From Pseudomonadota bacterium (GTDB lineage Bacteria > Pseudomonadota > Gammaproteobacteria > Burkholderiales > Burkholderiaceae_C), in contig JAIUPH010000018.1 of NCBI GenBank assembly GCA_020161065.1, positions 62,001 to 126,000 of the forward strand: a stretch of 64,000 nt of DNA. Direction: 5' to 3'. The notes under the pieces are model-generated. The model was not told where the DNA came from. It worked only from the letters and a program-made list of their open reading frames with translations, and did not search any database. How positions within the stretch are numbered: position 1 is the stretch's first letter; the number at the start of each line of letters is the position of its first letter. A program made the position numbers and the translations under genes. This document shows positions 21,495-63,303 of this stretch, piece by piece.

Positions 21495-21497
21495 CTG

Positions 21498-34779: not shown

Positions 34780-34819
34780 CTTCAAACGATAGCTTTGCTT
34801 CGCTGCCGGCCGGCGCGGC

Positions 34820-47556: not shown

Positions 47557-47828
47557 GCCGCCTTGCCCTTGGCGCGCCCGGTCGCCCGGACGAACCGGGC
47601 GACGGCCTCGGCTTCGACGGCCTGCTTCATCGCCTGCAGGCTGACCGGCTTGCGGCCCGGCTGGCGCAGAACGCCCAGCAGATCCAGCGCCGTGCGGCTG
47701 ACCGGGCGCGCGCGGATGGCCCCATCGACGATGTCGAAGTCCAGCCGCGTGCCTTCGGTCAGGCCGAGCTGGTCGCGGATGGGCTTGGGCACGGTGATCT
47801 GGCCCTTGCTGGTGATGGTGGCATGCAT
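47553..47828 (-). CDS. AbrB/SpoVT-type antitoxin
   Basis: 91 residues from the ATG at 47828. The N-terminal swapped-hairpin domain is classic: MHATITSKGQITVPKPIRDQ, then LGLTEGTRLDFDIVDG. The C-terminal ~45 residues, Lys/Arg- and Ala-rich, should bind and mask the VapC toxin. Start overlaps are consistent with translational coupling to the toxin. The longer open frame reported upstream is noise. It and the LysR gene upstream are on the same strand with 52 bp between, which contains no distinct promoter that I can identify. Confidence 0.87.
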   Translation of the reverse strand: MHATITSKGQITVPKPIRDQLGLTEGTRLDFDIVDGAIRARPVSRTALDLLGVLRQPGRKPVSLQAMKQAVEAEAVARFVRATGRAKGKAA

Positions 47829-48851: not shown

Positions 48852-48921
48852 TCCGTCGATGGCCCGGTTTTCCTATCGTGCGCTCGCGCCGCGGCTTCGC
48901 GGCAGCCAAGGAGACAAGCAC

Positions 48922-50061: not shown

Positions 50062-50065
50062 CCCG

Positions 50066-50146
50066 CCCCCCCGAAGCGCCTGCGGCGCCTCCCCCCCAGG
50101 GGGGCGCCGCCAGCGGCCCGGCGGAGCCGGTTCCGCGGCGGCCGCT
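50066..50146 (+). repeat. C-rich intergenic repeat, family A copy 2
   Basis: 81 bp, nearly identical to 4669-4749, with the CCCCCCC and GAAGCGCC start, AGGGGGG core and TTCCGCGGCGGCCGCT end. A few differences are compensatory within self-complementary stretches (for example GCTGGC versus GCCAGC), consistent with selection for structure. It sits between the monooxygenase and dioxygenase genes. Confidence 0.8.
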
Positions 50147-50191
50147 TGGTGGTCGCTGATTCATGCGACGCCGGTGCCGCAAGGCGGTATC

Positions 50192-50224
50192 AGCAACCGA
50201 GAAGCAACCGAGAAGCAACCGAGA
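50192..50224 (+). repeat. 11-bp tandem repeat overlapping the dioxygenase ribosome-binding site
   Basis: AGCAACCGAGA is repeated three times (50192, 50203, 50214) and a fourth degenerate unit (AGGAATCGACC) runs to the ATG at 50236. The GAGAAGGA Shine-Dalgarno sequence is made by the last unit junction. Copy-number change would alter the leader but not the start codon spacing, as long as the last unit is kept. Confidence 0.8.
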
Positions 50225-50235
50225 AGGAATCGACC

Positions 50236-51252
50236 ATGGCCATCCTCGGCATCGAAGCCGTCGTCTACGGCGCCAAAGACCTCGACACCAACTTCCGCTT
50301 CTGGCGCGACTTCGGCCTGCAGCCGCTGGCCGACGGGCCGGAAGAAAAAGTGCTGGCCTGCCAGAACGGCGCGCGGCTGGTGCTGCGCCACCACGGCGAC
50401 CCGCGGCTGCCCACGGCCTACGCGCACCAGGCCAGCGTGCACGAAAGCATCTGGGGCGTTGACACGCCGGCCGCCTTCGACACGCTGGTGGCCGACCTGC
50501 GCCGCGACCGCGAGGTGACGATCGACAGCGACGGCGTGGCGCACTTCATCGCCGAAGGCGGCATCCCGATGGGGCTGAAGGTCTGGCAGCCCAAGCCCTT
50601 CGTCTCCTGCCCCGACGAGGTGAACGCGCCGGGCCGCATCCGCCGCCTCAACCAGCACCGCAAGTGGCGGCTGGCGTGCCGGCCCAAGTGCATCAACCAC
50701 ATCGTCTTCTTCGTGCCCGACTACGTGGCCGCCTACGAGTTCTTCCGCGACCGGCTGGGCTTTCGCTACACCGACCACTCGCGCGGCATCGGCATCTTCG
50801 TGCGCGCCGACGGCGCCTTCGAGCACCACAACATCTTCTTCGTCTCCATGGACCTGCCGATCTCACCCGAGAAGCCCGGCTTCATGCACCTGTCGTTCGG
50901 GCTGGAAGACATCGACGAGCTGATGCTCGGCGTGCAGCGCATGCAGCAGGCCGGCTGGCAGCAGGACGGCTACAACACCAAGTACGGGCTGTGCCGGCAC
51001 CGCATCTCGTCGGCGATCTACTACTACCACGACATCCCGTCGGGCGGCGAGGCCGAGTACAACGTCGACACCGACTACGTCGACGACAACTGGATCCCGC
51101 GCGCCTGGGAGTTCAAGTTCGGCTCGCTGCTGTGGGCCACCCAGGTGCACGAGCTGTGGCAGGGCCCGGTCGAGATGGACATGCAGTTCGACCCCGACGG
51201 CGCCTCGATCGCCGCGGTCAAGGCAGCGTCTGCTCGCAGTTGCAGTTGTTGA
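50236..51252 (+). CDS. Two-domain VOC extradiol-type dioxygenase
   Basis: 338 residues, ATG at 50236. Two glyoxalase/VOC modules: residues ~1-140 (lacking a full metal site) and ~150-290. The 2-His-1-Glu iron site of extradiol dioxygenases is recognisable: His155 in CINHIVFFV, His218 in GFMHLSFGLED, and Glu272 or Glu274 in GGEAEYN. Such enzymes cleave catechol-type rings next to the hydroxyls using O2, with Fe(II). The order of motifs and length fit the type I bicupin-like class. It would act on the product of the upstream monooxygenase. The 3' end overlaps the convergent NTF2-like gene by 35 bp. Confidence 0.88.
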   Translation: MAILGIEAVVYGAKDLDTNFRFWRDFGLQPLADGPEEKVLACQNGARLVLRHHGDPRLPTAYAHQASVHESIWGVDTPAAFDTLVADLRRDREVTIDSDGVAHFIAEGGIPMGLKVWQPKPFVSCPDEVNAPGRIRRLNQHRKWRLACRPKCINHIVFFVPDYVAAYEFFRDRLGFRYTDHSRGIGIFVRADGAFEHHNIFFVSMDLPISPEKPGFMHLSFGLEDIDELMLGVQRMQQAGWQQDGYNTKYGLCRHRISSAIYYYHDIPSGGEAEYNVDTDYVDDNWIPRAWEFKFGSLLWATQVHELWQGPVEMDMQFDPDGASIAAVKAASARSCSC

Positions 51253-52111
51253 AGGTTTCCTTGAACGTGCGATACGGCTGCGGCAGCTTGGGCCAGATGA
51301 CCGCCGGCCGCTGCGGGCTGTAGGCCGGGTAGCTGTACAGCGGCTTGCGAAAGCCCGCCGGGAAGCCGGCGCGTTCGCCGGCCTCGCCGCCCTGCGACGC
51401 GAACTTGCCCTTGAACGCCAGTTCGCCGAGCCGGTCGTTGAGCTGGCTGAGCATCGACTCGGGCACGTTGGGCACGAAGTCGTAGGCCATCTGCAGGTGC
51501 CAGATCTTCCAGCGGCCGTTCTCCTTGACGAAGTCGGCGCCGTACTTCTCGAAGAAGAACATCGACTGCAGGTGGATCTTGCCGTCGACGTAGAACGGCA
51601 TCACGCCGACGCCGGGCGAGTACCAGGCGCCCTGCGCCGTCTGGCCGTCGTCGGCCACCTCGATCACCGGCGTGGTGCTGGTGTGCATCACCCATTCGGC
51701 GCCGGCGCCGAAGGAAGCCTCGTCGTCCTTCACCGTGCGGTCGATCGCCGCCAGCTTGGTCAAAGCTTCCTTGGCATCCTGGCGGCTTTTCAGGCCGTAG
51801 GCGTTGCGGATGGTCTCCAGCCCGTACATCACCCAGGCCGGGCTGCCGAAGGTGGCGGTGGCGGCGAACCGGCCGTCGCGCGCCACCCACATCGAGTCCA
51901 GCTCTTCCAGGTTGCGGCCTGCGGCGTGCATGTACTCGTGCCGGCTCATCAGGTTCTGCACCGCGATGGTGGCGGCCGCGCGCTCGCCGTCGGCGATGCG
52001 GCGTGCCTTGGCCGGCGGCGCGGCCGCCGCCGTCGTGGCCGCTGCGGCGGCCACGGCCGTCAACACCAGGCCCAGCATCGCGGGCTTGCAGCGTGCAAGA
52101 TGGTCGTTCAA
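51218..52111 (-). CDS. Exported NTF2/SnoaL-like protein
   Basis: 297 residues from a TTG at 52111 with AAGGAG well placed; the first ATG (52078) is inside the signal peptide. Signal region MLGLVLTAVAAAAATTAAA. The domain with IAVQNLMSRHEYMHAAGRNLEELDSMW, then the FEKYGADFVKENGRWKIWHLQM strand pattern, is an NTF2-like (SnoaL_4) cone, and the C-terminal ~80 residues (YSPQRPAVIWPKLPQPY) form an extension. Members bind or isomerise hydrophobic ring compounds (steroid isomerase, polyketide cyclase fold) and others have no known activity; the catalytic residues cannot be assigned. Unusual in being exported. It is 10 bp downstream of the SDR stop. Confidence 0.72.
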   Translation of the reverse strand: MNDHLARCKPAMLGLVLTAVAAAAATTAAAAPPAKARRIADGERAAATIAVQNLMSRHEYMHAAGRNLEELDSMWVARDGRFAATATFGSPAWVMYGLETIRNAYGLKSRQDAKEALTKLAAIDRTVKDDEASFGAGAEWVMHTSTTPVIEVADDGQTAQGAWYSPGVGVMPFYVDGKIHLQSMFFFEKYGADFVKENGRWKIWHLQMAYDFVPNVPESMLSQLNDRLGELAFKGKFASQGGEAGERAGFPAGFRKPLYSYPAYSPQRPAVIWPKLPQPYRTFKETFNNCNCEQTLP

Positions 52112-52121
52112 GAAAGCTCCT

Positions 52122-52925
52122 TCACCAGGCGGTGGCGCCTGCGTCGATGTTGAAATCAGCCGCCGTCACCCAGCTCGATTCGTCAGAACCCAGGTAGATG
52201 GCGAGCCAGCCGATGTCCTCGGGCTGGCCGGTGCGCTTGATCATGAATTTCGTCATCACCTGCTCGCGAAAGCCGGGGATGTTCTCCAGCGGGAACTTGG
52301 TGGCCGCCGTCTCCACCAGCGCCGGACTGATGGTGTTGACGCGGATGCCCAGCGGCCCGCCTTCCATCGCCAGCTGGCGGCTCATGGCCAGCACCGCGCC
52401 CTTGCCGGCGCAATGCGCCAGCGCCGGCGACAGCGGCAGCGCCATGCGCGCATTGGCGCTGGCGAAGTTGATGACGCTGGCGCCGCGGTGCTTGAGGTGC
52501 GGCCACGCCGCCTGGCAGGCGAGGAAGACGACGTCCACCTCGCCGGCCATCGTGCGCTTCCAGTCGCGCTCGAAGTCCATCTCTTCCAGCCACGCGAAGG
52601 CGCCGAAGGCGGCGGCGTTGACCAGGATGTCGATGCCGCCGTGGCGGTCGGCCGCATGCGCCATCAAGCGGCGCGACGCGGCCGGGTCGGTGAGGTCCAG
52701 CGGGTGCAGGCTGTCGATCGCCAGCCCTTGCGCGGCGGCGGCGTCGGCCGTGGCCTGGGCACCGGCGGCGTCGATGTCGCAGCCGATGACGGCGGCGCCC
52801 TGCTGCGCATACATCAGCGCAATGCCGCGGCCGATGCCGGCGCCGATGCCGGTGACCACCGCCACCTTGCCGGCCAGCCGGTCGCCGCGCCGGCCGGGCA
52901 GCGCCGGCTTGATCGTGTTGCTCAT
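52122..52925 (-). CDS. SDR-family oxidoreductase with altered active site
   Basis: 267 residues, ATG at 52925. Rossmann NAD(P)-binding GIGAGIGRG (TGxxxGxG type) at ~26-34 and the NNAG-equivalent NAAAF at ~103. The catalytic Ser is near 156 (NFASAN), Lys is 175, but the position four before Lys, which must be Tyr in active classical SDRs, is His171 in ALAHCAGKGAV. So it lacks the usual proton donor: either His acts instead or the protein is not a dehydrogenase. Proximity to the receptor (stop/ATG spacing of 2 bp) suggests co-translation. Role in the ligand pathway is inferred only from position. Confidence 0.85.
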   Translation of the reverse strand: MSNTIKPALPGRRGDRLAGKVAVVTGIGAGIGRGIALMYAQQGAAVIGCDIDAAGAQATADAAAAQGLAIDSLHPLDLTDPAASRRLMAHAADRHGGIDILVNAAAFGAFAWLEEMDFERDWKRTMAGEVDVVFLACQAAWPHLKHRGASVINFASANARMALPLSPALAHCAGKGAVLAMSRQLAMEGGPLGIRVNTISPALVETAATKFPLENIPGFREQVMTKFMIKRTGQPEDIGWLAIYLGSDESSWVTAADFNIDAGATAW

Positions 52926-52927: not shown

Positions 52928-55396
52928 CTAGAACTTCACGCCGACGTTGACGCCCAAGGTGCGCGGATCGGTGATCTGCACGCGGCCGAAAGGCAGCACC
53001 TGCGTGGTCTGCGCGTCGTTTTCCAGGTTGCGCAGCCACAGCGCCAGGTTCCAGCGCTCGCTGCCCGGGGCGTACGACAGGCGCAGGTCGGTCTTGTGGA
53101 AGCGGCCCTGCAGGGCGTTGAGGTTGCCGCCCGGCATCGCGTCGTTCAGCGAGACGGTGTAGCCGTCGGAGAACTTGGTGCTGAAGCCGGCCGTCAGCGT
53201 GCCGCCGGCCACGTCCCACACCTGCTCGGCGCCCAGCGTCAGCGTCCAGCGCGGCGTGCCAACCACGCGCGCGCCGTTCATGTTCTGCAGCGCGGCCACC
53301 GCGAAGTCGCCGTAGCGCGCGTCGGTGTAGGTGGCGGCGGCGCGCAGCTCGGTGTCGGGCAGCACGCGCCAGCGGCTTTCCAGGTCCAGCCCGTTGATGC
53401 GGCCGGCGCCGGCGTTCACCACGTACTGCATGAACGAGCCGGTGCTGTCGCCCGGAATCGGCGACGGCGCCGCCGTATCCGCGTACATGACCTGGTAGTT
53501 GCGGTAACGGTAGGCGAACAGCTCGCCGTTGAGCTGCAGCCGGTTGTCCAGGAAGCGGTTCTTGCTGCCCAGCTCGAAGGCGGTGAGGCGCTCGGGCTCG
53601 AAAGGCTGCGGCGGCACGCTGATGCCGAAGCCACCCGCCTTGTAGCCGGTGGCCAGCTGGGCGTAGAGCATGGACTGGCGCGCCACGTCGTACTCGAGCC
53701 CCAGCTTGCCGGTGACGGCGCTGTAGGCATTGCTCACCGACAGCAAACCGCTGTCGTAGGGCGCGCCGGTCCAGCTGCTGCTGCTGCGCACGCCGTAGCG
53801 CGTGAGCTTCTCGTCGCGCGTGTAGCGCAGCCCCGCGGTGCCGCGCAGGCCGGTGGCCAGCGGCGCCGTCAACTGGCCGAACACGGCCTTCGACTGGTTG
53901 GGCACCTGGGTGCCGTAGCTCTCCCAGGTGGGCGGCGGGAACGACGGCGGCACGCCCGTCTGCTCGTTCGCGGCGTCGAACCAGTAGGCGCCGACGACCC
54001 ATTGCGTGGCCGCGCGCGCCGGCGAGGCCAGGCGCACTTCCAGCGTCTTCTGCGTTTCCTGCCACACCGATTCGGGCAGCGGCAGCGTGGTGCCCGGCAC
54101 CGCCAGCCCGGCCACCAGGTCGGTCTGCGTCAGGCGGCGGCTTTTCACGTAGGCCGGCTGCACGGTCAGCAGGCCGAAGCCGAGGTTGAGGTCGAGCTGC
54201 AGCGAATACGTCGTGAAGCGCGTGCGCTGCACGTCGGCGGGGTGCAGGTCGTCCACCTGCCAGGGGTCGCTGTAGTCGGTGCGCCAGTTGAAGAACGGCG
54301 GCCCGCCGGCAAAGGCGCGCGGCACGGTGGTGGCGCCGGCGCCCTGGCTTTCGAAGCTGTCGATGGTGCCCAGCAGCGAGACGTCGGCATTGGGCTTGAA
54401 CAGCAGCTTGACGCGGCCGGCCGTCAGGTCCGACGCGCGGCCGCCGTTGCTGAAGTAGCCGTCGCGCTTTTCGCGCATGGCCGCCACGCGCAGCGCGAAC
54501 ATCTCGCCCAGCGGCACGTTGACGAAGCCGTCCACGTGCGCGAGCTGGTAGTTGCCAACCTGCGCGTTGACGCCGCCTTCGAGCCGCGTGCCCGGGTTGT
54601 TGGTCAGCACGTTGACGCTGCCGCCGGTGGAGTTGCGGCCGTACAGGGTGCCCTGCGGGCCGCGCAGCACCTCCACGCGGTTGACGTCGTACATGCTGGA
54701 GAACACGCGCTCGGCGCGGCCGCTGTACACCCCGTCGAGATTCAGCGACACGGCCGGGTCGACGTAGTTGCTGTCGCCCTGCGAGCCGACGCCGCGCACG
54801 TAGACCTGGCCGCCCTGCGGCGTGGCCAGCACGGTGACGGCGGGCGTGTCCGACAGCACCGCTTCCAGCGTGGTCTGGCCCTTGGCGCGGATTTCCTCGC
54901 CGGTCTCGGTGGCGATCGAGATCGCCGTCTTCTGCACGTTCGCGCTGCGCCGCTCGGCGGTGACCACGATCTCCTGCAGCGTGCCGGCGGCCGGCTTGGC
55001 GGCGGCGGTAGCAGCGGACGTAGCGGCGGCGGCAGAGGCGGCGGCGGCGGCCGCCATCAGCGGCGCCATCTTCTTGTCGAAGGCCTTCATCTTGGCCAGC
55101 GTGAGGCGGCCGTCGCCGTTGGTGTCGATGCCGTCGGGCGCGGGCACCTTGCTCATCGCCTCGACGGTGACGCAGCCGCGCGCGTCCTTCAGCATCTCGT
55201 AGCTCGACATCGGCGCGCCGGCGCGCTGCCACTCTTCGCGCGTGGCGCAACCGTCGCCGTCGAGGTCGACTTCGCTGAAGAAGGGGCGCACGTCCATGGT
55301 CTTGCCGGCCGGCTGCGCCGCGGCCGCCGTGGCAGCGAACAAGGCCAGCCACAACGGGGCGCGGGCCAGCGGGGGGATGCGGGTGGATGCAGACAT
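52928..55396 (-). CDS. TonB-dependent receptor with N-terminal EF-hand domain
   Basis: 822 residues from the ATG at 55396. Signal peptide (to ~27). A loop DLDGDGCATREE starts at Asp44: ligands 1, 3, 5, 6 and 12 are Asp44, Asp46, Asp48, Gly49 and Glu55, a canonical EF-hand. A second loop starts at Asp91 (DTNGDGRLTLAK) but ends in Lys, so is weaker. An Ala-rich linker (~114-137), TonB box-like TLQEIVVTAERR (~139), plug (NRVEVLRGPQGTLYGRNSTGG) and barrel ending NVGVKF follow. No STN signalling domain is present. EF-hand fused to a TonB-dependent receptor is not an architecture I know; calcium sensing or stabilisation is possible. The same gene arrangement (HxlR upstream) occurs only here in the window. 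Confidence 0.85.
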   Translation of the reverse strand: MSASTRIPPLARAPLWLALFAATAAAAQPAGKTMDVRPFFSEVDLDGDGCATREEWQRAGAPMSSYEMLKDARGCVTVEAMSKVPAPDGIDTNGDGRLTLAKMKAFDKKMAPLMAAAAAASAAAATSAATAAAKPAAGTLQEIVVTAERRSANVQKTAISIATETGEEIRAKGQTTLEAVLSDTPAVTVLATPQGGQVYVRGVGSQGDSNYVDPAVSLNLDGVYSGRAERVFSSMYDVNRVEVLRGPQGTLYGRNSTGGSVNVLTNNPGTRLEGGVNAQVGNYQLAHVDGFVNVPLGEMFALRVAAMREKRDGYFSNGGRASDLTAGRVKLLFKPNADVSLLGTIDSFESQGAGATTVPRAFAGGPPFFNWRTDYSDPWQVDDLHPADVQRTRFTTYSLQLDLNLGFGLLTVQPAYVKSRRLTQTDLVAGLAVPGTTLPLPESVWQETQKTLEVRLASPARAATQWVVGAYWFDAANEQTGVPPSFPPPTWESYGTQVPNQSKAVFGQLTAPLATGLRGTAGLRYTRDEKLTRYGVRSSSSWTGAPYDSGLLSVSNAYSAVTGKLGLEYDVARQSMLYAQLATGYKAGGFGISVPPQPFEPERLTAFELGSKNRFLDNRLQLNGELFAYRYRNYQVMYADTAAPSPIPGDSTGSFMQYVVNAGAGRINGLDLESRWRVLPDTELRAAATYTDARYGDFAVAALQNMNGARVVGTPRWTLTLGAEQVWDVAGGTLTAGFSTKFSDGYTVSLNDAMPGGNLNALQGRFHKTDLRLSYAPGSERWNLALWLRNLENDAQTTQVLPFGRVQITDPRTLGVNVGVKF

Positions 55397-55446
55397 GCGC
55401 CAAGCGTAGGCAGCGCCCGCCGGCGCGCCAACGGGACTCGCCATGA

Positions 55447-55502: not shown

Positions 55503-56030
55503 TCAGTCCCGCGCCTCAGCCTCCTGCCCCTGCGCGCCGGCAAACTCCGGGTGCTTGCGATCGAACGCCTCGCGGGCGGCGCGCACGGCCGGGGTGGCGC
55601 GCTCGGCCCAGCGCACCAGGGCGATGAAGTGGGCGTAGACCTCCTGCCCCATCGCGGTGAGCTGGTACTCCACGCGCGGCGGCACGTCGGCGGTGGCCTG
55701 GCGCAGCACGAGGCCGTCGCGTTCCAGTACGCGCAGTTTGAGCGTCAGCATGCGCTGCGAGATGTCCTGCTCGGCCGAGACCAGCGCGATCAGCTTCTTC
55801 AGCTCGGCATGGCGCAGCATGCCGCCGCTGAGCAGGTGCATCACCAGCGAACTCCAGCGGTCGCCCAGGTAGGCCGGCGTCGTGCGCACCGGGTCGTCGC
55901 GCCGGTTGCCGTGCAGCGCCATGTTGCCCAGCAGCACGCTGATGTTGTCCAGGTGGCGCCGGCGCTCGTCGGCCGGGCGGTCGGCACCGATGCAGGCCAG
56001 GGCCTCGGCGGTCTTGTCGGCTGAAGACAT
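55503..56030 (-). CDS. HxlR-type winged-helix regulator
   Basis: 175 residues, ATG at 56030, longer at the N-terminus than the usual ~110. The HxlR winged helix covers ~55-150: YLGDRWSSLVMHLLSGGMLR, ELKKLIALVSAEQDISQRML, TLKLRVLERDGLVLR and ADVPPRVEYQLTAMGQEV. HxlR proteins sense reactive electrophiles, aldehydes or redox state. Its only Cys is Cys13 in the N-terminal arm. It lies between the two receptor operons, both on the same strand, and is the natural regulator of one or both. Confidence 0.87.
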   Translation of the reverse strand: MSSADKTAEALACIGADRPADERRRHLDNISVLLGNMALHGNRRDDPVRTTPAYLGDRWSSLVMHLLSGGMLRHAELKKLIALVSAEQDISQRMLTLKLRVLERDGLVLRQATADVPPRVEYQLTAMGQEVYAHFIALVRWAERATPAVRAAREAFDRKHPEFAGAQGQEAEARD

Positions 56031-56161: not shown

Positions 56162-57667
56162 TCACGGCGCCACCAGGCGCCCGCCGCTGGCCAGCCGCTG
56201 CTCGCCGGCCGGCAGCGTGCCCACGCCGTTCTTCACGCTGATGGTGACCCCGGGCAGCGCGTCGATCTGCGCCGCCGTCGTGCCGGGGGCCAGCGTGACG
56301 CTGGAATCGGCCGTGGCCGTCCAGCGGCTGGCGCCGTCGAGCGCCAGCTCCACGCCCTGGATGCGGCCGCGCAAGCTGCTGCCTTCCAGCCGCACGCGCA
56401 TCGCGCGGTCGCCGTCCAGGTGCACCAGGTTGCCTTGCAGCCGGCTGCCGCGGATCACGGCGCGGATGCCCGGCACCGCGGCGCCTTGCGTCTTGGTCGC
56501 GAAGCCGTCGTCGTTGACCACGCCCAGCAGCAGGTCGCCGTTGCCGGCGCTGATGGCCGCGCGGTCGATCGTGATGTCGGCGTTGGCGCTCTTGACGACG
56601 ATCGCGGCGTTGCGGCTGCGCAGCTCGCCGCCGCTGATCGTGAGCGTGCCCACCTCCTGCGGCTGGCCCATCACGCTGTGAATCATCACCGCGTTGCCTT
56701 GCGACTTCAGCTTCAGCGCGTCGAAGCTCAGCGCGGCCTGGCCGGCGATCACGCCGCCGAAGGTCGGCACGTCCATCGTCGAGTGGCGGATCACCGCGCT
56801 GGCGCCGTTGTCGGCGTAGACGCCGTAGCCGCTGCGCCGCACGACGATCGTGCAGCGCTCGGCTTCCAGTTGCGCGCCGCGCGCGGCGTCGGTCGACAGC
56901 GCGCCCCAGCCTTCGGCGATGAGGGTCGAATCGGCATAGTAGGCCTTGGCGCTGCCCATCGTCAGCGTGGTGCGCGCGGTGCCGCTGATGCCCAGCGGCG
57001 TGGGCGGCTCCATCATGCCGGGGCCGATGCGGCGCGTGTAGCCGCTGGGCAGCGGCCCGCCTTCGGCGACCAGCGTCGAGCGCAGCACGCGCAGCGTGGC
57101 CTGGTCGGTGGCGGTGACCGCCGAGGCCACGACGCCGCGCGTGACGATGCGCGCGCCGCGCAGTTCCAGCGTGGCGCCGTCCTTCACCAGCACGCCGGCG
57201 GCGATGCCGTCGAAGTCGCTCTTGCCGCGGCCGTTGATCTCGATGGCCGCACCCTGCAGCGCGGTGCGGCCCTGGCCGCGCACGATCAGGCCGTTGACGC
57301 GGTCGCGCGTGGAGACGATCTTCAGCGCGCGCCGGGCCGCGGCGCCGGCGCCTTGCACCTGGGCCTGCGCGGCGGCGTCGGCGGGCAGCCAGCGGCCGTC
57401 GACGATCTCGGCGGCGGCGACGTAGACCACCGGCTCCTGCGGCGGCATCGGCGGCATGCCGGGCGGCAGCGGCGGGCCGCCGCCGGGCATGCCGGGCGGC
57501 GCGCCGGGCGGTGCCCCTTGCGGCGCTCCCGGTGCAGCACCCGGTGGCGCACCCGGCGGCGGCCCGCCGGCCGGTTGCGCGAAGGCGGTGGCCGCCAGCA
57601 GCGCGGCGGCAGCAAGGGCCGCAAGCGTGCGGCGGGGCAGGCGATTCATGCGAAGAGGCATCTTCAT
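56162..57667 (-). CDS. Exported beta-helix-like protein, Pro/Gly-rich N-terminus
   Basis: 501 residues, ATG at 57667 overlapping the upstream stop (ATGA). Signal peptide (TLAALAAAALLAATAFAQ), then a Pro/Gly/Ala-rich stretch (~28-75). The rest consists of short repeated strands with Gly, Asp, Asn and Thr turns (GVLVKDGATLELRGARIVTRG, LRVLRSTLVAEGG, AYYADSTLIAEGWGALSTDA), the look of a right-handed beta-helix. It is a paralogue of the first beta-helix gene at 59235: both contain GWG(A/V)LS(T/V)DA, then a SGYG segment and MDVPTFGG/IDVPTHGI. No lyase motif is evident. Function unknown; it may bind or process polysaccharide or a surface ligand. Confidence 0.7.
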   Translation of the reverse strand: MKMPLRMNRLPRRTLAALAAAALLAATAFAQPAGGPPPGAPPGAAPGAPQGAPPGAPPGMPGGGPPLPPGMPPMPPQEPVVYVAAAEIVDGRWLPADAAAQAQVQGAGAAARRALKIVSTRDRVNGLIVRGQGRTALQGAAIEINGRGKSDFDGIAAGVLVKDGATLELRGARIVTRGVVASAVTATDQATLRVLRSTLVAEGGPLPSGYTRRIGPGMMEPPTPLGISGTARTTLTMGSAKAYYADSTLIAEGWGALSTDAARGAQLEAERCTIVVRRSGYGVYADNGASAVIRHSTMDVPTFGGVIAGQAALSFDALKLKSQGNAVMIHSVMGQPQEVGTLTISGGELRSRNAAIVVKSANADITIDRAAISAGNGDLLLGVVNDDGFATKTQGAAVPGIRAVIRGSRLQGNLVHLDGDRAMRVRLEGSSLRGRIQGVELALDGASRWTATADSSVTLAPGTTAAQIDALPGVTISVKNGVGTLPAGEQRLASGGRLVAP

Positions 57668-59238
57668 TGCGGCTTGAGCGGCAGGCGGACCGTGGCGCCG
57701 CCTTCTTCCCAGATCTGTCCGTCCAGGGTTTCGATCCACCAGACCAGGTCGACCAGCGGCTGGCCGTCGACGATGGCCTTGGCGACCACGCGCGACTGCA
57801 CCAGCGCCACGTCCTGCGTCAGGCCGTGGGCGTCGACGTAGCGGCCCTTCATCTCCGGCAGCCAGGGCACCAGCTGCTCCAGGTAGCGTTGGGCGCGCGG
57901 GTTGGTCGGCACCGGCTTGCCCTGCGCCGCGTGGCCGCGCGGGTCCATGATCGACCAGCGGATGTTCTGCAACCAGCCGGCGTCGCCCATCCAGTTGTCG
58001 AGGTGGCGGATCGCCAGGTCGCGGCCCATGTAGTTGACGAGCGGGCTGCGCTGCTCGCCGTCCTTGTGGATGTCGGTGGTGGTGATGGCGCCGGCATCCG
58101 GCGGCGGCGGCGGCGCGCCGCCGGCGGCAGCGGGCTGCGGCGGCGGCGCCGGCACATAACCGCTGCGTTCGGCGGTGCGCCAAATGCCGTCGCGCGCGCC
58201 GCGGACCAGCGTGGCGCGCGTCGCGTCGTCGAGGATCTCGCGCTTGAGCGTGCGGCTGCCGCCCGACCCCATGCCCCAGGGCGGCACCGGCGAGACCGAG
58301 GCGAGGATGGGCCCGTCCAGCGTGGGCAGCGGCGCGCTGCCGGGTTGCACGTCGTCCCAGTAGCGCGGCGTGGCGCCCTGGCGGCGCTCGGCCTGCCAGA
58401 GGGCGCGGATGCGCGCCCAGTCGGCATCGGTGTACACGCGGGCCGGGCGGGCCAGCCAGTCGGGCGCCTCCCACATGTCGAAGAAGCCAGGGTTCTTCGG
58501 CGCGTCGGCCGGGTCGCGGTAGAGCTTGATGCTCTCGGTGACGCGGAAGATCACCTCGTTGACCTTCTCGGCGCGCTGGTTGTAGATGCTGCCGCGCGTG
58601 TTGATCGCCAGCGTGCGGTAGATCGACCCGGCCGCCGGCGTCAGGTCGATCAGCTCGCGCTCGTCGGCCACCAGGTACAGCGTGTCGCCCGGGTGGATGG
58701 GCCTGAGCGCGGTGACGCTGTGGTTGAGGTCGCTGACCAGCAGCGTGTCGCGCGCCGCCGGCGGGTACGGCAGCATGAAGGTGTCGTCGTGCGCGCCGAA
58801 GGTGGCGAAGGCCAGGATGTCGGCATAACCCGCACGTCGCGCGTAGTCGCGGTCGTGGCGCAGCGGGTTCTCGGGGTCGATGCGGCGGTTCTGGTAGCGC
58901 ACCCAGTCTTCGGTGACGCGGATCACCGGGCCCAGGCCCGGCGTGCCGGGCGCCAGCTCGCCCTTCACCAGCCGCGCGGCGTCGATCGGCCCGCGCGCCT
59001 TCAGCGCCGCGTTGTCGGCCAGGTACTGCTGCACCAGCGCCTGCTCGCGCGCCGTGTAGCGGCCGGGGTACAGGCGCTGGAACTTCTCGGCCACCACCGC
59101 CTTGACCGGCGGCGCCGTCATCGACGGGTTGAGTTGCGCGGCGGCGTCGATCGACAGCGCGGCCAGCAGCGATGCCAGCAACGACGGCAGCACCGCGGCC
59201 CGCAACGGCCGCGGCATCGAAGCGCGCCGCGTCGTCAC
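57664..59238 (-). CDS. Exported double-hotdog (MaoC-like) protein
   Basis: 524 residues from a GTG at 59238, overlapping the upstream stop in GTGA, the same coupling as the next junction; ATG at 59217 is an alternative. Signal peptide PSLLASLLAALSIDAAAQ (to ~35). Residues ~95-240 form the first hotdog (MaoC-like): GYADILAFATFGAHDD, LNHSVTALRPIHPGDTLYL, GSIYNQRAEKVNEVIFRVTES. Residues ~430-520 form the second: YLEQLVPWLPEMKGRY, GLTQDVALVQSRVVAKAIVD, LVDLVWWIETLDGQIWEEGG, VRLPL. A Pro-rich middle joins them. MaoC/hydratase-type hotdogs are cytoplasmic CoA or ACP enzymes; the Asp/His pair is only partly evident (HDD). Export signal and the secreted neighbours make this very unusual. Confidence 0.72.
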   Translation of the reverse strand: MTTRRASMPRPLRAAVLPSLLASLLAALSIDAAAQLNPSMTAPPVKAVVAEKFQRLYPGRYTAREQALVQQYLADNAALKARGPIDAARLVKGELAPGTPGLGPVIRVTEDWVRYQNRRIDPENPLRHDRDYARRAGYADILAFATFGAHDDTFMLPYPPAARDTLLVSDLNHSVTALRPIHPGDTLYLVADERELIDLTPAAGSIYRTLAINTRGSIYNQRAEKVNEVIFRVTESIKLYRDPADAPKNPGFFDMWEAPDWLARPARVYTDADWARIRALWQAERRQGATPRYWDDVQPGSAPLPTLDGPILASVSPVPPWGMGSGGSRTLKREILDDATRATLVRGARDGIWRTAERSGYVPAPPPQPAAAGGAPPPPPDAGAITTTDIHKDGEQRSPLVNYMGRDLAIRHLDNWMGDAGWLQNIRWSIMDPRGHAAQGKPVPTNPRAQRYLEQLVPWLPEMKGRYVDAHGLTQDVALVQSRVVAKAIVDGQPLVDLVWWIETLDGQIWEEGGATVRLPLKPQ

Positions 59239-61193
59239 GACGCCGCCTCCGGCCGCAGCACGATGCGACCACGGTAGCGCGCGCCGGGGGCGATCGCCGT
59301 CGGCACGCCGTCGACCGTCATCGTCAGGCGCTGGCCATCGGGCGCGCGCAGCTCGGCGCCGTCGCCCAGCTCCAGCGCCGTCAGGTACGACGCGCCGGTG
59401 ACGGTCCAGCGCGAACGCAGCAGCGAGACGATCACGCCGTTGTTCACGGCCGGCGCCGGCGTGTTGTTCACGCGGCCCAGCCACGCGTAGTCGGCGGCGC
59501 CGATCTCGGGCTTCAGGTGGCGCGCCTGCGCGGCCGTCACCACGCCGCGCAGCTGGCTGTCTTCCAGCGTCAGCACCAGGTTGGCGCCGGTGACGCGCGG
59601 CGGCTCGCGGCTCGGGCCCTGCGGGCCGAAGCCGCCGCCGACCATGCGCGAACGCATGGCGTTGAAGAAGTCGCCGACCAGCGCGGTCTTGATGAAGCGC
59701 AGCGTGGTGTCGGTCGGGTGCCGCGCCGCGAGGTCGAAGCCGGGCACCGGCGCCGGCGGCCCTTCGGGCTCGCGCCAGACGCCGACGTTGGCCATCAAGC
59801 CATCGCGCATCACCGGGCCCGGGTCGTCGTTGTCGATGGCCTGCAGGATCACGCCGTTGCGCGGCATGAACTGCGCGCCGCGCGAGCCGTCGACCGTGAC
59901 CGCCAGCGTCGCGCCCTTGTTGAGGAACACCGCCTCGCCGGTCTCGAACACGGTGGCATCGTCGACCTTGACGGTGGCGTCGCCCCAGCTCATCACCGCG
60001 TGGCGGCCGGCGCGCACCACGGTCTGCTGCTGCGGCACGGCGGCCAGTTCGGCGTTGCTCAGGCCCCAGGCCAGCTCGGCGTTCAGCCGCGCCAGCACGT
60101 CGGGCCGGCTGGCGCCGAACACCGCGTGGCCGCCGGTGATGATGATGCCGTGCGTCGGCACGTCGATCGTGCTGCCGAGGAAGCGGTTGGTCGAGTTGCC
60201 GATCGCGTACGAGCCGTAGCCGCTGTCGCCGCGCAGCTCGATGCGGCTGTTCACGGCGCTGAGCTGCGCGTTCTCGCTGGCGTCGACCGACAGCACGCCC
60301 CAGCCGTCGGCCTTGAGCGTGGCGTTCAGGTAGGTCGCCACCGTGCCGTTGCCCAGCAAATTGGTGGCGCGGTTGTTGCCGCGGATGCCCAGCATCCACG
60401 GCGCGTCCTTCATCTCGCCCGGCGTCACGTTGCTGACGTAGTCGTCGCCCAGCGTGCCGCCGCGGGCGTCGATCTCGCTGTTGGCCACCAGCAGGTGGCT
60501 GCCGCCCGCGGCCACCACCGCGGTGCGCACGGCGCCGTGGGTGACGATGCGCGCGCCGTCCAGCACCAGCCGCGTCGCCGCGCCGTCGGACATCACGCCG
60601 GCGCCATAACCCGCGAAATCATTGCCCCCATTGCCGCTGAACGACAGCGCCAGCCCACGCACCCGCCATTGGCCGCCGGCGGCCAGCAGGCCGTTGAAGT
60701 TCTCGCCGGCCGAGCGGATGTCCGCGCCGTCGAGCACGCCGCCGGCGACCTTCGGCGCGCCGGCCGCCGCCAGCACCGACTTCGCCGCGACGATGCCGGT
60801 GGCGTCCAGGAACAGCGCCTGCCGGAACGGGTGCACCAGCAGCGGCGAGAAAGCGACCGGATGGCGCTCGGTCACGCTGAGCACGACGCGGCCGCGGTAG
60901 CGGCCCGGGCGCATCGTGGTCTCGACGCCGTCGACCGTCATCGTCAGGCTCATGCCCGGCGGCGCGGCGATGGCGGCGCCGGGCGCGATCTGCAGGCTTT
61001 GCAGCTCGGTCGTGCGGTCGACGATCCATTGCTCGCCGGCCCCGACGCGCGGGTTCAGCCGCGCCGCGGCCACCGCTTCGGGCGGCACCGGCCCGGGCAT
61101 CTGCGCGTGGGCGCCGGTGGCGGCAATCAGCAGCAGCAGGCAGGTCGCAGCCGCCAGCGCGGCCGGCGTCCATCGCAATCTCGGAAACTGCAT
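59235..61193 (-). CDS. Exported beta-helix-like protein, longer paralogue
   Basis: 652 residues, ATG at 61193 one base past the TonB receptor stop. Signal peptide ALAAATCLLLLIAATGAHAQ. From ~50 the sequence is repeated Gly/Asn-rich strands (LALSFSGNGGNDFAGYGAG, LVLDGARIVTHGAVRTAVVA, HLLVANSEIDARGG, NRFLGSTIDVPTHGIIITGG), consistent with a beta-helix. Two related ends: LTMTVDGVETTMRPGRYRGR near residue 85-104 and LTMTVDGVPTAIAPGARYRGR near the C-terminus, an internal repeat. It is homologous to the 501-residue protein at 56162. No known enzymatic motif; catalytic role unproven. Confidence 0.7.
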   Translation of the reverse strand: MQFPRLRWTPAALAAATCLLLLIAATGAHAQMPGPVPPEAVAAARLNPRVGAGEQWIVDRTTELQSLQIAPGAAIAAPPGMSLTMTVDGVETTMRPGRYRGRVVLSVTERHPVAFSPLLVHPFRQALFLDATGIVAAKSVLAAAGAPKVAGGVLDGADIRSAGENFNGLLAAGGQWRVRGLALSFSGNGGNDFAGYGAGVMSDGAATRLVLDGARIVTHGAVRTAVVAAGGSHLLVANSEIDARGGTLGDDYVSNVTPGEMKDAPWMLGIRGNNRATNLLGNGTVATYLNATLKADGWGVLSVDASENAQLSAVNSRIELRGDSGYGSYAIGNSTNRFLGSTIDVPTHGIIITGGHAVFGASRPDVLARLNAELAWGLSNAELAAVPQQQTVVRAGRHAVMSWGDATVKVDDATVFETGEAVFLNKGATLAVTVDGSRGAQFMPRNGVILQAIDNDDPGPVMRDGLMANVGVWREPEGPPAPVPGFDLAARHPTDTTLRFIKTALVGDFFNAMRSRMVGGGFGPQGPSREPPRVTGANLVLTLEDSQLRGVVTAAQARHLKPEIGAADYAWLGRVNNTPAPAVNNGVIVSLLRSRWTVTGASYLTALELGDGAELRAPDGQRLTMTVDGVPTAIAPGARYRGRIVLRPEAAS

Positions 61194-61194
61194 G

Positions 61195-63303
61195 TCAGAA
61201 GCGGGTGTTCACGACGACGCCATAGGTGCGCGGCGCGCCGACCATCGTCGAGCCGACGAAGTTGGCCACCTTGGGCACGTAGTCGGTCACGTTCTTGACG
61301 TAGAAGTTGATGCCCCACTTGTCGTCGGGGCTGCGGTAGTTGGCCAACAGGTCGATCTGCGTGTACGCCGGCTGCAGCGTGTCGGCGTTCTCGGTGATCG
61401 ACACGTACTGCTTGGTGGTGTGGCGCACGTCGCCGCGCAGCGTCAGGCTGGAGCCGCTGGCGAAGTCGATCGGCAGCTCGTAGCCGGCCTTGACCGTGAG
61501 CTTGGGCGCGTGCGGCAGCGGGTTGCCCTTCAGCGTGGCCTTTGTGAGGTCGAAGTTGGTCTGCGTCAGGTCGCCCAGCGTCGCGTCCAGGTAGGTGAAG
61601 CTGGCGCGCAGCTTGCCGGCGCTGCCGGGCAGCAGCAGCTGGGTCTCGGCCTCGACGCCCTGGATGGTCTGCTTGGGCACGTTGAGGAACTGCGCGTAGA
61701 GCCCGGCGCTGGTGAAGGCGAAGTCGATCGCCTGGTAGTCGCGGTAGTCGTAGCGGAAGACCGCGCCGTTGAACTGCAAGCGGTTGTCCATCCAGCGGCT
61801 CTTGATGCCCAGCTCCAGCGACTTCAGCTTCTCGGCGTCGAAGGTGCCGCTGTTGCCGGGCAGCGTGTTAAAGCCGCCCGGGCGGTAGGCCGTGGCGTAG
61901 GTCAGGTAGAGCATCGCCGCGGGGCCGAGGTCGTACTCGACGCCGACCTTGCCGTCGGTGCTGCTCCAGTCGCCGACCGAGCCGTCGACCGCCGTCTTGT
62001 GGTCCTTGGTGTGGCGCAGCCCGCCGACCAGTCGCGTGCCCGCGGCCACCGGCACGCTGACCTGCCCGAACGCCGCCTTCGACACCGTGGTGTCGCGCGT
62101 GCCCAGCGAGCCGGCGCAGGCCTCGGCGCTGAGCAGGCAGCTCTGCTCGTTGAGCATGTCGTACCAGTAGGCGCCCACCACCCACTGCACGGCCGAACTG
62201 CCCGGCGCGGCCAGCCGCACCTCGGCGCTCTTCTGGCGCGCGTTCTTCGGGTCGGCGTTGTACTGTTCCTCCGAGCCCGCGGGGCGCGAGGCGTCCCACT
62301 TGCGGTAGACGATGCCCTCGCCGCTTTGGTACGCGGGCAGCACCGTCAGCACGCCGAAGCCGAGGTTCCAGTCGGCCTGCGCCCACAGCTTGGTGGCGTC
62401 GTAGCTCTGGTACCCCACCTTCTCCAGCCCCGGCGTCGTCGGGTTGACGGCCGACTGCAGCCGCGTGTCTTCGTCGTTCCAGTTGGCCTGCGGGATGAAG
62501 CCCGGCCCCTTGCCGCCGAGGTGGATGCGCTCGCCGCCGACCAGCAGCCGGAAGTCGCCGTTCGGCTTGAACAGCACCTTCACGCGCGCGCCGCTGGCCT
62601 GCGCGTCGTTGAAGCCGTCGCTCAGGTAGCCGTCGCGGCTGATGGCCGCGCCCGAGACGCGCAGCGCCACGGTCTCGCCGAGCGGCAGGTTGAAGCCCGC
62701 TTCGCCGCGCACCAGGCGCTGGCTGCCCAGCTCCAGCGAAGCGCGGCCGTCGCTGCGGCCGAGCACGGGGTCGCGCGTCACGTAGTTGACGGCGCCGGCC
62801 GCGGCGTTGCGGCCGTACAGCGTGCCCTGCGGGCCGCGCAGCACTTCCACGCGGTCGAGGTCGAACAGCCCCAGCGTGTTCATCTCGGCGCGGAAGTTGT
62901 AAACGCCGTCGTAGTTGGTCGACACCGCCGACTCGCCCATGCCCGGCGGCAGGTCGGAGCCGATGCCGCGGATGGCGATCACGTTGCCGCGCGCCGCGCC
63001 CTGCACCTCGACGTTGGAGACGTTCTTCAGGATCTCGGCGCCGCTGCTCAGGCCTTGCTCGGTGATCTCGGCGCCGCTCACGGCCTGCATCGAGATGCCG
63101 GTCTTCTGGATGTTGGCCGCGCGGCGTTCGGCGGTGACGGTCACGGTCTGCAGCTGGCCGCTCTTCTTCTCGGCGGCGGGGCTCGGCTCGGCCGCCGGCG
63201 CGGGCTCGGCGGCGGTCTGCGCAAGGGCTTGCAGGCTGCTCAGCGGCAGCAGCGCGACGAGCGCTGCGGCGGCAAGCGGAGTCAGGGCGGGACGCTGTTT
63301 CAT
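61195..63303 (-). CDS. TonB-dependent outer-membrane receptor, second copy
   Basis: 702 residues, ATG at 63303. Signal peptide ending LQALAQ; an Ala/Pro/Glu-rich stretch; TonB-box-like TVTVTAERR (~52); plug motif DRVEVLRGPQGTLYGRNAA; barrel ending GVVVNTRF (terminal Phe). The plug start AERRAANIQKTGISMQAVSG resembles the EF-hand receptor (AERRSANVQKTAISIATETG), so the two are likely paralogues serving related ligands. It leads the four-gene operon with the exported hotdog and beta-helix proteins. The 135-bp upstream spacer has small dyads (CGGCA/TGCCG, GTCA/TGAC) but no recognised operator. Confidence 0.92.
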   Translation of the reverse strand: MKQRPALTPLAAAALVALLPLSSLQALAQTAAEPAPAAEPSPAAEKKSGQLQTVTVTAERRAANIQKTGISMQAVSGAEITEQGLSSGAEILKNVSNVEVQGAARGNVIAIRGIGSDLPPGMGESAVSTNYDGVYNFRAEMNTLGLFDLDRVEVLRGPQGTLYGRNAAAGAVNYVTRDPVLGRSDGRASLELGSQRLVRGEAGFNLPLGETVALRVSGAAISRDGYLSDGFNDAQASGARVKVLFKPNGDFRLLVGGERIHLGGKGPGFIPQANWNDEDTRLQSAVNPTTPGLEKVGYQSYDATKLWAQADWNLGFGVLTVLPAYQSGEGIVYRKWDASRPAGSEEQYNADPKNARQKSAEVRLAAPGSSAVQWVVGAYWYDMLNEQSCLLSAEACAGSLGTRDTTVSKAAFGQVSVPVAAGTRLVGGLRHTKDHKTAVDGSVGDWSSTDGKVGVEYDLGPAAMLYLTYATAYRPGGFNTLPGNSGTFDAEKLKSLELGIKSRWMDNRLQFNGAVFRYDYRDYQAIDFAFTSAGLYAQFLNVPKQTIQGVEAETQLLLPGSAGKLRASFTYLDATLGDLTQTNFDLTKATLKGNPLPHAPKLTVKAGYELPIDFASGSSLTLRGDVRHTTKQYVSITENADTLQPAYTQIDLLANYRSPDDKWGINFYVKNVTDYVPKVANFVGSTMVGAPRTYGVVVNTRF

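Follow-up and report, generated by a model that had tools for sequence, protein, structure and literature searches.

A compact operon of four genes, here called A, B, C, and D, combines a TonB-dependent receptor with two paralogous proteins of predicted beta-helix type and a predicted double-hotdog protein in the window, i.e., the whole 64,000-nucleotide stretch of DNA analyzed. We give a probability of about 0.5 to the reading that this operon serves a plant polyphenol imported by a TonB-dependent route, processed in the periplasm by cofactor-free proteins, and then hydroxylated and ring-cleaved in the cytoplasm. The reading draws directly on the gene layout, the predicted folds of B and C, the signal-like N-termini, the cluster context in three other proteobacteria, and the way helix, SnoaL, and hotdog genes are distributed together in an Oscillospiraceae-family sample.

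Organization of the Operon and Its Neighborhood

Genes A-B-C-D form a single tight unit on the minus strand: A and B are 1 base apart, B and C share a GTGA overlap, and C and D an ATGA overlap. This layout confirms the operon described in an earlier note on this DNA, and A is the TonB receptor that the note took it for, matching the Pfam models TonB_dep_Rec_b-barrel (3.1e-40) and Plug (5.2e-17). The unit and the genes beside it are as follows:

61195..63303, minus strand: A, TonB-dependent receptor, 702 aa, first in the unit, signal-like N-terminus
59235..61193, minus strand: B, predicted right-handed beta-helix protein, 652 aa, signal-like N-terminus
57664..59238, minus strand: C, predicted double-hotdog protein, 524 aa from GTG, signal-like N-terminus
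56162..57667, minus strand: D, paralogue of B, 501 aa, Pro/Gly-rich linker behind the signal
55503..56030, minus strand: HxlR-type regulator adjoining the unit (Pfam HxlR, 4e-21)
52928..55402, minus strand: second TonB-dependent receptor, 824 aa (Pfam, 2.2e-37)
52122..52910, minus strand: SDR oxidoreductase (Pfam, 1.9e-49)
51218..52111, minus strand: SnoaL_4-type protein, 297 aa, signal-like N-terminus (Pfam SnoaL_4, 6.4e-10)
50236..51252, plus strand: VOC-family ring-cleavage-type dioxygenase (Pfam Glyoxalase, 3.2e-11)
48859..50061, plus strand: FAD aromatic hydroxylase (FMO) of the PRK06847 type (NCBIfam NF005313, 5.2e-125, over the cut-off)
47881..48804, minus strand: LysR regulator (Pfam HTH_1, 1.4e-13; LysR_substrate, 1.2e-15)

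A caller based on GC content by codon position recovered all four frames of the unit, giving D a shorter start at 57490. C has an alternative in-frame ATG start at 59217, from which its signal is also retained. The second receptor is 35% identical to A. Judged by its gene families, the unit is part of a larger catabolic neighborhood of plant-aromatic type that includes the SnoaL protein with its predicted export. A further cluster (L032), lying some 5-21 kb upstream in this contig, carries HisD-like, FAH, and alpha/beta-hydrolase genes; compared with their homologues in Rhizobium paknamense (L024), identities are 66% for the HisD-like protein, 49% for FAH, 50% for the alpha/beta hydrolase, and 42% for an epimerase.

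Relatives in Proteobacteria and Flavonoid-Type Clusters

Co-occurrence beyond the source genome was found in the form of subsets, i.e., a TonB receptor with C and D, a TonB receptor with D and B, and C without B or D; the complete A-B-C-D order was seen in its own genome only. In an Aquabacterium MAG (L021), which has C and D and lacks B, a receptor 68-69% identical to A lies directly before C. A Novosphingobium plasmid (L038) carries TonB receptor-D-B homologues in a similar catabolic cluster, with C absent from the plasmid, the only replicon covered. In Pseudooceanicola endophyticus CBS1P-1 (L023) and R. paknamense DSM 100301, both culturable, C lies inside flavonoid-type clusters and adjoins FMO, VOC, HisD-like, FAH, epimerase, and alpha/beta-hydrolase genes, and neither of these genomes holds B or D. 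The surroundings of C in L021 and L022 showed no FMO/VOC and no FAH/HisD/epimerase/hydrolase genes. VOC and FMO homologues are both present in L023, L024, and L038, and an FMO homologue also in the upstream cluster L032. A 46% homologue of the HxlR regulator adjoins the C cluster of R. paknamense, and the SDR has a 55% copy in the same locus and a 72% copy directly before a C paralogue of its own genome. No member of the window's SnoaL family turned up in the L021, L022, L023, or L024 genomes, and on the Novosphingobium plasmid the family occurs only ~195 kb away from B/D.

Searches with C in 370 genomes of the class and with D in 250 genomes of the family returned the own genome only, for D at convincing scores, and among 297 genomes of the order of R. 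paknamense the sole C match was the known holder. A B/D search of 385 genomes from the class of R. paknamense gave nothing at E <= 1e-20, a result of low weight because the set held no positive genome. A plasmid search with C yielded one distant match (24%), a Comamonas protein annotated as a MaoC N-terminal-domain protein.

FMO and a VOC-type dioxygenase stand together in one cluster both in the window (48859-51252) and in L032. This core is shared with the naringenin cluster fde of Herbaspirillum and the isoflavone cluster ifc of Variovorax, a likeness at the level of gene families. The 2,6-dihydroxypseudooxynicotine-hydrolase-like alpha/beta hydrolase of fde/ifc is likewise matched by L032:10232-11395, whose best PDB match is 2JBW (4.4e-24). 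Unlike fde/ifc, the window also has TonB receptors and a module of hotdog, beta-helix, and SnoaL proteins that carry signal-like N-termini; the described flavonoid pathways are not known to include periplasmic enzymes. In the ifc study, the FMO IfcA and the glyoxalase-type IfcB act in isoflavone breakdown, a likeness to 2JBW is also reported for the ifc alpha/beta hydrolase, disruption of this hydrolase in Variovorax leaves daidzein degradation unaffected, and there is no mention of TonB or MaoC (PMC11069340).

Multiplied Relatives in Oscillospiraceae

One genome (G621) of the Oscillospiraceae, a family typical of guts, has the helix in 28 places, together with 13 hotdogs and 20-22 SnoaL matches that are kin of the SnoaL protein at 51218. 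Across the Oscillospiraceae-family sample, SnoaL accompanies the helix in 8 of the 9 genomes with strong helix matches, and 0 of the 31 others tested have it. Two genomes from the family of G621 (G676 and G715) both show the order of three SnoaL genes, an OYE gene, and a helix gene; a hotdog-OYE pair occurs in G668, and OYE-hotdog and SnoaL-hotdog neighbors occur in G621. Many helix genes of G621 lie amid unrelated or housekeeping-type genes, with no OYE, SnoaL, FAD-type, or aromatic oxygenase genes beside them, so the linkage in this genome is mostly by genome and not by neighborhood. The sole OYE examined (L106:5797-8037) is similar to the models for BaiCD and bilirubin reductase, reaching 214.7 bits against the former, far below its cut-off of 825. 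In pairing SnoaL-family proteins with OYE flavoenzymes, the Bacillota operons are like the bai-type bile acid dehydroxylation toolkit, which is not known to have a beta-helix counterpart.

Predicted Export Signals

Export was judged by a home-made Sec-like signal score. A, B, C, and D score 4.0-4.4 and the SnoaL protein at 51218 scores 3.7, compared with 1.25 for VOC, 0.35 for FMO, and -0.85 for HxlR; taken from the caller's shorter start, D scores 1.05. The SDR, which we take to be cytoplasmic, is a counterexample at 4.02, level with the putatively exported proteins. Since the SDR scores high and the VOC protein is non-exported though it needs no soluble cofactor, the notion that cofactor-free means exported is a loose one. 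Signal-like N-termini recur in close proteobacterial relatives, namely in 4 of 5 for C (complete N-termini only, the exception being the own-genome paralogue), 2 of 2 for B, and 3 of 3 for D (two of the D starts hand-chosen). By this crude score, the export signals that the earlier note had seen in all four proteins hold, and export of A, B, C, and D is likely.

Predicted Fold and Possible Roles of the Beta-Helix Proteins

B is modeled as a right-handed beta-helix (AlphaFold pLDDT 85.8), with a short cap module repeated close to both ends. D is its paralogue (42% over ~200 aa, E = 3.6e-30) and would be a beta-helix by homology to B, the member of the pair whose fold was predicted, in agreement with the earlier description of two paralogous beta-helix proteins. 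D homologues occur in L021, L038, and G621, and the D-type forms a clade of its own in the tree. Against Pfam Beta_helix, B reaches 10.8 bits (cut-off 25.9) and D has no match; of 18 aligned B/D rows, 5 pass E <= 0.01, the strongest at 1.2e-10. The predicted fold of B is common to the right-handed beta-helix enzymes of the pectate-lyase-like superfamily and to pertactin; unlike these, B and D have their own conserved residue set, with R275, W298, D304, Y326, K426, and D457 (B numbering) invariant across 16 rows, and their catabolic neighbors, where present, are aromatic or redox enzymes.

Foldseek matches of the B model are weak, the best being pertactin (7.9e-4, TM 0.26/0.32). This match and the apparent export of all four gene products would suit B and D as surface or periplasmic binding or scaffold proteins that capture a ligand for A, leaving C as the sole enzyme, as would a signal in one aligned G621 helix, an SLH domain in one aligned row, and three more G621 helices that by eye start with signal-like stretches. 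We consider such a role doubtful. The signal-like stretch is missing in 6 of 7 B-type and 6 of 6 D-type rows of the G621 alignment (12 of 13 together), two helices of related genomes belong to OYE and SnoaL operons, an unlikely setting for a surface binder, the six residues above are invariant, and Pfam found no C-terminal autotransporter barrel in B or D. Because most Bacillota relatives examined have no export signal and some sit in reductase operons, an enzyme is likelier than an adhesin or mere binding. The adhesin or autotransporter reading was downgraded on the signal-free relatives and the two helices in redox operons.

Among the other Foldseek matches of B, all weak, many are beta-helix enzymes that act on carbohydrates (GH110, DFA-IIIase, and fucoidan and alginate lyases), as expected if the operon imports and modifies a polysaccharide or glycoconjugate, with B and D as glycosidases or lyases and the hotdog incidental. 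This is improbable and was downgraded, since neither B nor D matches a carbohydrate-enzyme family in Pfam or NCBIfam; moreover, the B/D profile has no match among PDB sequences at E <= 1, and the catabolic neighbors of helices are aromatic oxygenases (the window and L038) or OYE/SnoaL/FAD-type proteins, many G621 copies having neither. A step that cleaves the sugar off a flavonoid glycoside might still take place.

The Predicted Double-Hotdog Protein

The AlphaFold model of C is a double hotdog (pLDDT 83.1), as the earlier note had proposed, and its best Foldseek match is MeaC (8hgn; E = 1.5e-10, TM 0.38/0.53); identity among its double-hotdog matches is 9-14%, and the TM-scores are modest. 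A profile of the C family finds 5i7n in the PDB (1.4e-13). Against Pfam FAS1_DH_region (PF13452), C scores 13.3 bits (E = 0.095; curated cut-off 22), and 16 of the 19 rows of the C alignment, C not among them, match it at E <= 0.01. In the model, C has its overall fold in common with MeaC and the MaoC/hydratase-2 double hotdogs, from which it differs in bearing a signal and an NWMGD motif in place of the canonical one. D185, NWMGD, and further columns are shared with dehydratases of ~370-410 aa annotated as FAS1_DH_region or 'MaoC N-terminal domain' (L020, L026-L028), which form a clade apart from C (100/100) and have no signal-like stretch; several adjoin CaiB-like CoA-transferase genes, recognized by eye.

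The fold and the nearest solved relatives, which are CoA/ACP hydratases, also fit an ordinary MaoC-type acyl-thioester dehydratase with an N-terminal hydrophobic stretch, working on CoA esters as a cytoplasmic or membrane-associated enzyme, and the own genome carries a signal-free paralogue 62% identical to C. We consider this quite unlikely, since 4 of the 5 close members from proteobacteria have a signal-like N-terminus even as the sequences in that region differ. The motif [GS]Dx-N-P-x-H, which we take to be the canonical catalytic motif of (R)-specific hydratase-2, occurs in 0 of 19 rows of the C alignment, a weak argument against a CoA-ester role because cytoplasmic-type relatives lack it as well. 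A literature search found no paper on periplasmic MaoC-type hotdog proteins with a signal peptide. We know of no activity for close relatives of B, C, and D, and a search for relatives of tested function found none for B, D, or NWMGD-type hotdogs.

A Proposed Route for Plant Polyphenols

In the periplasmic-processing scheme that we favor, receptor A would import a plant-type aromatic, for which a flavonoid-like polyphenol or some larger conjugate is the likeliest candidate. B, D, C, and probably the SnoaL protein at 51218 would process it in the periplasm, cofactor-free, by non-redox chemistry of the lyase, dehydratase, or isomerase type, i.e., elimination or hydration, isomerization, or C-C or C-O lysis. 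Given periplasmic processing, C would probably act on a free substrate and not on a CoA or ACP ester. The product would pass to the cytoplasm for the SDR, hydroxylation by FMO, and ring cleavage by the VOC dioxygenase, and the HisD-like, FAH, and alpha/beta-hydrolase proteins of L032 may help complete the breakdown. Export itself, the substrate class, CoA-independence, the reactions, and the order of steps are what we infer here.

The evidence supports the earlier suggestion of an extracytoplasmic system whose ligand is unknown, which stood on all three points checked (the fold of C, the export signals, and co-occurrence in other genomes). The accompanying statement that no such system has been described holds within the literature covered, mostly titles and abstract openings: none joined a TonB-dependent receptor, a beta-helix, and a flavonoid degradation gene cluster, no title or abstract opening described the helix/hotdog/SnoaL set, and the parts of the lignin and lignan-dimer degradation literature covered do not mention its terms.

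Tentatively, B/D-type helices, C-type hotdogs, and the SnoaL family might be one undescribed cofactor-free kit against plant polycyclics and polyphenols. Anaerobic gut-type bacteria might have dozens of copies of its parts and use them in the cytoplasm, beside OYE and FAD reductases, and a few Proteobacteria might have acquired it, gained signal peptides, and moved it to the periplasm, behind a TonB receptor and ahead of oxygenase pathways. In such a kit, C could be a hotdog acting on free ketones, e.g., in flavanone-type ring opening or closing via hydratase-like beta-elimination, and B/D could be a new class of beta-helix catalyst.

Polyphenol-degrading bacteria shape both rhizospheres and guts. 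With 28 places in one genome and similar SnoaL/OYE operons in two relatives, the helix family is a large pool of probable enzymes without a function. The window operon is small, with four genes, one receptor, and an interpretable catabolic pathway adjoining it, which makes substrate screening practical.

Organization of the gene unit

Three unrelated protein families recur together across two phyla: a beta-helix-type family (helix), a double-hotdog family (hotdog) and kin of a SnoaL_4-type protein encoded at 51218 of the window (SnoaL). Helix and hotdog genes meet in a single unit, as the earlier note claimed; its four genes lie on the minus strand and are joined by a 1-base gap, a GTGA and an ATGA.

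61195-63303, minus: A, TonB receptor; first gene, 1 base before B
59235-61193, minus: B, helix protein; GTGA overlap with C
57664-59238, minus: C, hotdog protein; ATGA overlap with D
56162-57667, minus: D, helix protein; last gene of the unit

All four frames were recovered by an independent GC-by-codon-position caller, which gave D a shorter start. B and D are 42% identical across ~200 residues, and neither they nor C matched a Pfam or NCBIfam family above cut-off. Among the loci examined, drawn from pattern-limited catalogue scans and sampled genomes, the full A-B-C-D order occurs only in the window genome, and no function-tested relative was found for any member of the set. D is followed by genes for an HxlR regulator and a second TonB receptor and then by those for an SDR and the SnoaL_4 protein. 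Oriented divergently from this group are genes for a VOC (ring-cleavage-type dioxygenase) protein and an FAD aromatic hydroxylase (FMO), and a LysR gene comes after them.

A second catabolic set lies upstream on the same contig (C4:126001-146000, locus L032). Family models identify an FMO of the same PRK06847 subfamily as the window's and a HisD-like gene; SMP-30 and LysR are family matches, and the VOC is 32% identical to that of the window. An FAH gene and an epimerase are assigned through Pfam-labelled genes of locus L024 (49% and 42%, respectively). The set also holds the end of a TonB receptor (partial gene), a small iron-sulphur-type protein recognized by eye, and an alpha/beta hydrolase for which the PDB search ranks 2,6-dihydroxypseudooxynicotine hydrolase first (2JBW, 4.4e-24). 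PMC11069340 describes, in the Variovorax isoflavone cluster ifc, a hydrolase with likeness to that same enzyme, disruption of which left daidzein degradation unaffected, together with IfcA, an FMO for daidzein 8-hydroxylation, and the glyoxalase-type IfcB. The ifc FMO and glyoxalase-type genes are there related to the naringenin genes (fde) of Herbaspirillum (for fdeE, see also PMC11303751). By description, ifc and L032 have in common an alpha/beta hydrolase with 2JBW-type likeness, an FMO and a glyoxalase/VOC-type gene. The label flavonoid-type rests on this likeness to the ifc/fde make-up as published.

Relatives in Proteobacteria

A catalogue scan with C, which works on short peptide patterns and is limited by them, returned eight loci, five of them with near-full-length relatives: an Aquabacterium MAG (L021, 78%), a near-identical Burkholderiaceae MAG (L022, 79%, gene cut), Pseudooceanicola endophyticus (L023, 50%), Rhizobium paknamense (L024, 49%) and an Oscillospiraceae MAG (L025, 33%). 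The other three encode distant, signal-less dehydratase-type proteins at 24–26% to C. C is rare in the genomes sampled: at E <= 1e-20 it was found only in its own genome among 370 of the class. In the order of R. paknamense, one of 297 genomes had it. Ten of 150 family genomes matched at E <= 1e-3, the nine non-self matches reaching only 22–42 bits. For D, 250 family genomes gave a convincing match only in its own, with three others at 18–23 bits.

The own genome carries a second copy of C (62%) directly 3' of an SDR 72% identical to that of the window. Judged by its sequence, this paralogue lacks a signal and gives the cell another use of the hotdog. Near it (L029 14594 to L030 5386) are a LysR gene, a siderophore-interacting-type flavoprotein, a TonB receptor and two FAD_binding_2 proteins.

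The Aquabacterium locus has the order TonB receptor (68–69%)-C-D; B was not found there, and FMO/VOC or FAH/HisD/epimerase/hydrolase homologues were found neither there nor in L022. In L023 and L024, C lies amid VOC, FMO, FAH, epimerase, HisD-like, SDR and alpha/beta-hydrolase genes, and neither genome gave a B/D match. The gene right after C in these two alphaproteobacteria (L023 11669-12778; L024 11719-12822) encodes a protein of ~368 aa, 53% alike between them, with a signal-like start by eye and no match in a Pfam search; it is possibly a porin standing in for the TonB receptor. The RoxA family includes exported double-bond-cleaving members, and a RoxA-like cytochrome c protein near the R. 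paknamense hotdog (L024 13129-14910, 7.7e-18) fits periplasmic chemistry beside C.

A tblastn search with B against 72,556 plasmid records found a single one, Novosphingobium sp. ES2-1 plasmid p1 (L038). It carries a TonB receptor (36% to A), then a D homologue (44%), then a B homologue (34%), followed by an FMO and a TonB receptor in pieces, an epimerase gene (43% to the L032 epimerase), LysR and SDR; C was not found on the plasmid. It also holds a VOC (51% to the window's), an FMO (39%) and L032-like alpha/beta hydrolase (45%), HisD-like (65–67%, two pieces) and FAH (44%) genes. An FMO, a TonB receptor and the HisD-like gene are each in two pieces (19695-23432 and 34514-35774), and the B homologue diverges from its family toward its end; either decay or sequencing errors would account for this.

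Recurrence in Oscillospiraceae-type genomes

The B/D alignment was searched in seven genomes or records. In G621, the 2.4-Mb MAG containing L025, it matched 35 stretches at E <= 0.001 (best 6.2e-98), or 28 separate places, some short, after merging neighbouring pieces; in the same genome, near-full-length hotdogs number 13, and SnoaL matches 22 at E <= 1e-3 or 20 at E <= 1e-8. Across 120 genomes of its family, nine have strong helix matches (best E <= 1e-90), excluding G700 with only a short match (7.0e-13), and five have near-full-length hotdogs, excluding seven genomes with short single-hotdog matches. Four genomes have both (hypergeometric 7.4e-5; 7.9e-4 with G621, chosen for having C, left out; relatedness not controlled in either). 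The window SnoaL was searched in 40 of the 120, namely the nine helix-strong genomes, G700, the hotdog-only G659 and 29 helix-negative genomes in list order, and was found in 8/9 helix-strong genomes vs 0/31 others (Fisher ~1e-7 by hand, relatedness not controlled). In G675 the helix occurs with neither SnoaL nor hotdog, and in G659 the hotdog with neither helix nor SnoaL. Our label 'gut-type' for these genomes comes from the family name Oscillospiraceae, not from a sample record.

A one-strand array SnoaL-SnoaL-SnoaL-OYE-helix, OYE being a flavoenzyme family, occurs in both G715 and G676. In G668, an OYE directly follows a hotdog 41–42% identical to C, which the tree places as sister of the proteobacterial C clade (100/99). 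G621 has a divergent hotdog and helix (L104) and, at L106, two hotdogs directly preceded by an OYE and a SnoaL, respectively; numerous G621 helix genes lie amid unrelated or housekeeping-type genes. Ten neighbours tested comprised one OYE, three FAD_binding_2, two extracellular solute-binding and one SnoaL_4 protein, and three without a family. The OYE shows likeness to the models for mycofactocin-associated OYE, bilirubin reductase and BaiCD, scoring far under each cut-off. One of the FAD proteins is similar to vinyl phenol reductase, again under cut-off.

B-type and D-type helices separate at 100/100. Since each type spans Proteobacteria and G621, the tree places the split before the operon.

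Predicted folds and conserved residues

The predicted model of C (19-row alignment; pLDDT 83.1, pTM 0.85) has double hotdogs as its top Foldseek matches, namely the mesaconyl-CoA hydratase MeaC (8hgn, 1.5e-10), 4e3e and 5i7n, with hydratase-2 domains (1pn2, 1s9c) ranked lower. TM-scores are only modest, for MeaC 0.38 when taken by query and 0.53 when taken by target. From sequence alone, the C alignment profile matched 5i7n at 1.4e-13, and also HadA, ChsH2 and others. The canonical hydratase-2 motif is present in 0/19 hotdog rows, and N[WY]xGDxG in 18/19.

B is predicted to be almost entirely beta (16 rows; pLDDT 85.8, pTM 0.87); in Foldseek it comes closest to right-handed beta-helices, every match being weak (pertactin 7.9e-4, GH110 2.0e-3, DFA-IIIase 7.6e-3; TM 0.17–0.33). 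A short cap module lies near both its N- and C-terminal ends: compared with the C-terminal half, the N-terminal copy reaches a score of 132, the best of 200 shuffles 57, and the repeat recurs at z > 5 in six of eight other B-type rows (2.2 and 3.1 in the remaining two). The 16 positions invariant in the 16-row helix alignment include R275, W298, D304, Y326, K426 and D457 (B numbering). The conserved polar residues of B and D would suit catalysis, though the proteins are not known to catalyse any reaction.

Export signals

Signals were scored with a home-made measure that weighs a hydrophobic stretch, a positively charged N-terminus and small cleavage-site residues; it has false positives and serves as a guide only; gene starts in fetched loci are simple-script calls. 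A, B, C and D score 4.0–4.4 (with the shorter start of the caller, D gets only 1.05), the second TonB receptor 3.9 and the SnoaL protein 3.7; VOC (1.25), FMO (0.35) and HxlR (-0.85) are low, and the SDR, though presumably cytoplasmic, still reaches 4.0.

C of Aquabacterium, Pseudooceanicola and Rhizobium scores 3.9–4.1, the own-genome paralogue 0.3 and the Oscillospiraceae C -2.1; L022, its 5' end cut, was excluded. Novosphingobium B scores 4.6. D scores 3.1 in Aquabacterium from an upstream start (L021:5235; the script-called start was later) and 3.4–4.0 in Novosphingobium when begun upstream of the deposited start. Among close proteobacterial members with complete N-termini, 4/5 C, 2/2 B and 3/3 D thus look exported. 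In the tree, the six close proteobacterial C group as a single clade (100/100), and since the signal-less paralogue nests within it, export is probably ancestral there, with one loss.

In G621, signal-like stretches are absent from the eight hotdogs aligned of 13 and from 12/13 aligned helices; three further helices have them by eye. Pro/Gly-rich (GGPGGP-like) stretches precede several signal-less G621 helix proteins and occur in some G621 hotdogs (L066-L071, L104-L122); by eye, they resemble that of the exported D in the window.

A proposed mode of action

Where their neighbours are catabolic, the helix, hotdog and SnoaL families sit next to enzymes for aromatic or polycyclic small molecules; these are oxygenases in aerobes, and OYE and FAD proteins in genomes of the Oscillospiraceae type. 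Window members of the three families have signal-like N-termini, and FMO and VOC have none. Having a TonB receptor points to a ligand that is bulky or scarce. We know of no CoA or ACP in the periplasm, so C, if periplasmic, would probably act on free substrate. Hotdog hydratases carry out reversible beta-elimination/addition; speculatively, C might open or close the ring of a flavanone-like beta-oxy ketone.

Other features of the window

The second TonB receptor (52928-55402) has an EF-hand-like calcium-binding stretch ahead of its plug (residues 41–61; EF-hand_1, E 1.2e-4, 21.8 bits vs a cut-off of 25.4), which is, to our knowledge, unusual in this receptor class. At 47146-47828, tandem small PIN-type and AbrB-type genes resemble, by eye, a toxin-antitoxin pair.
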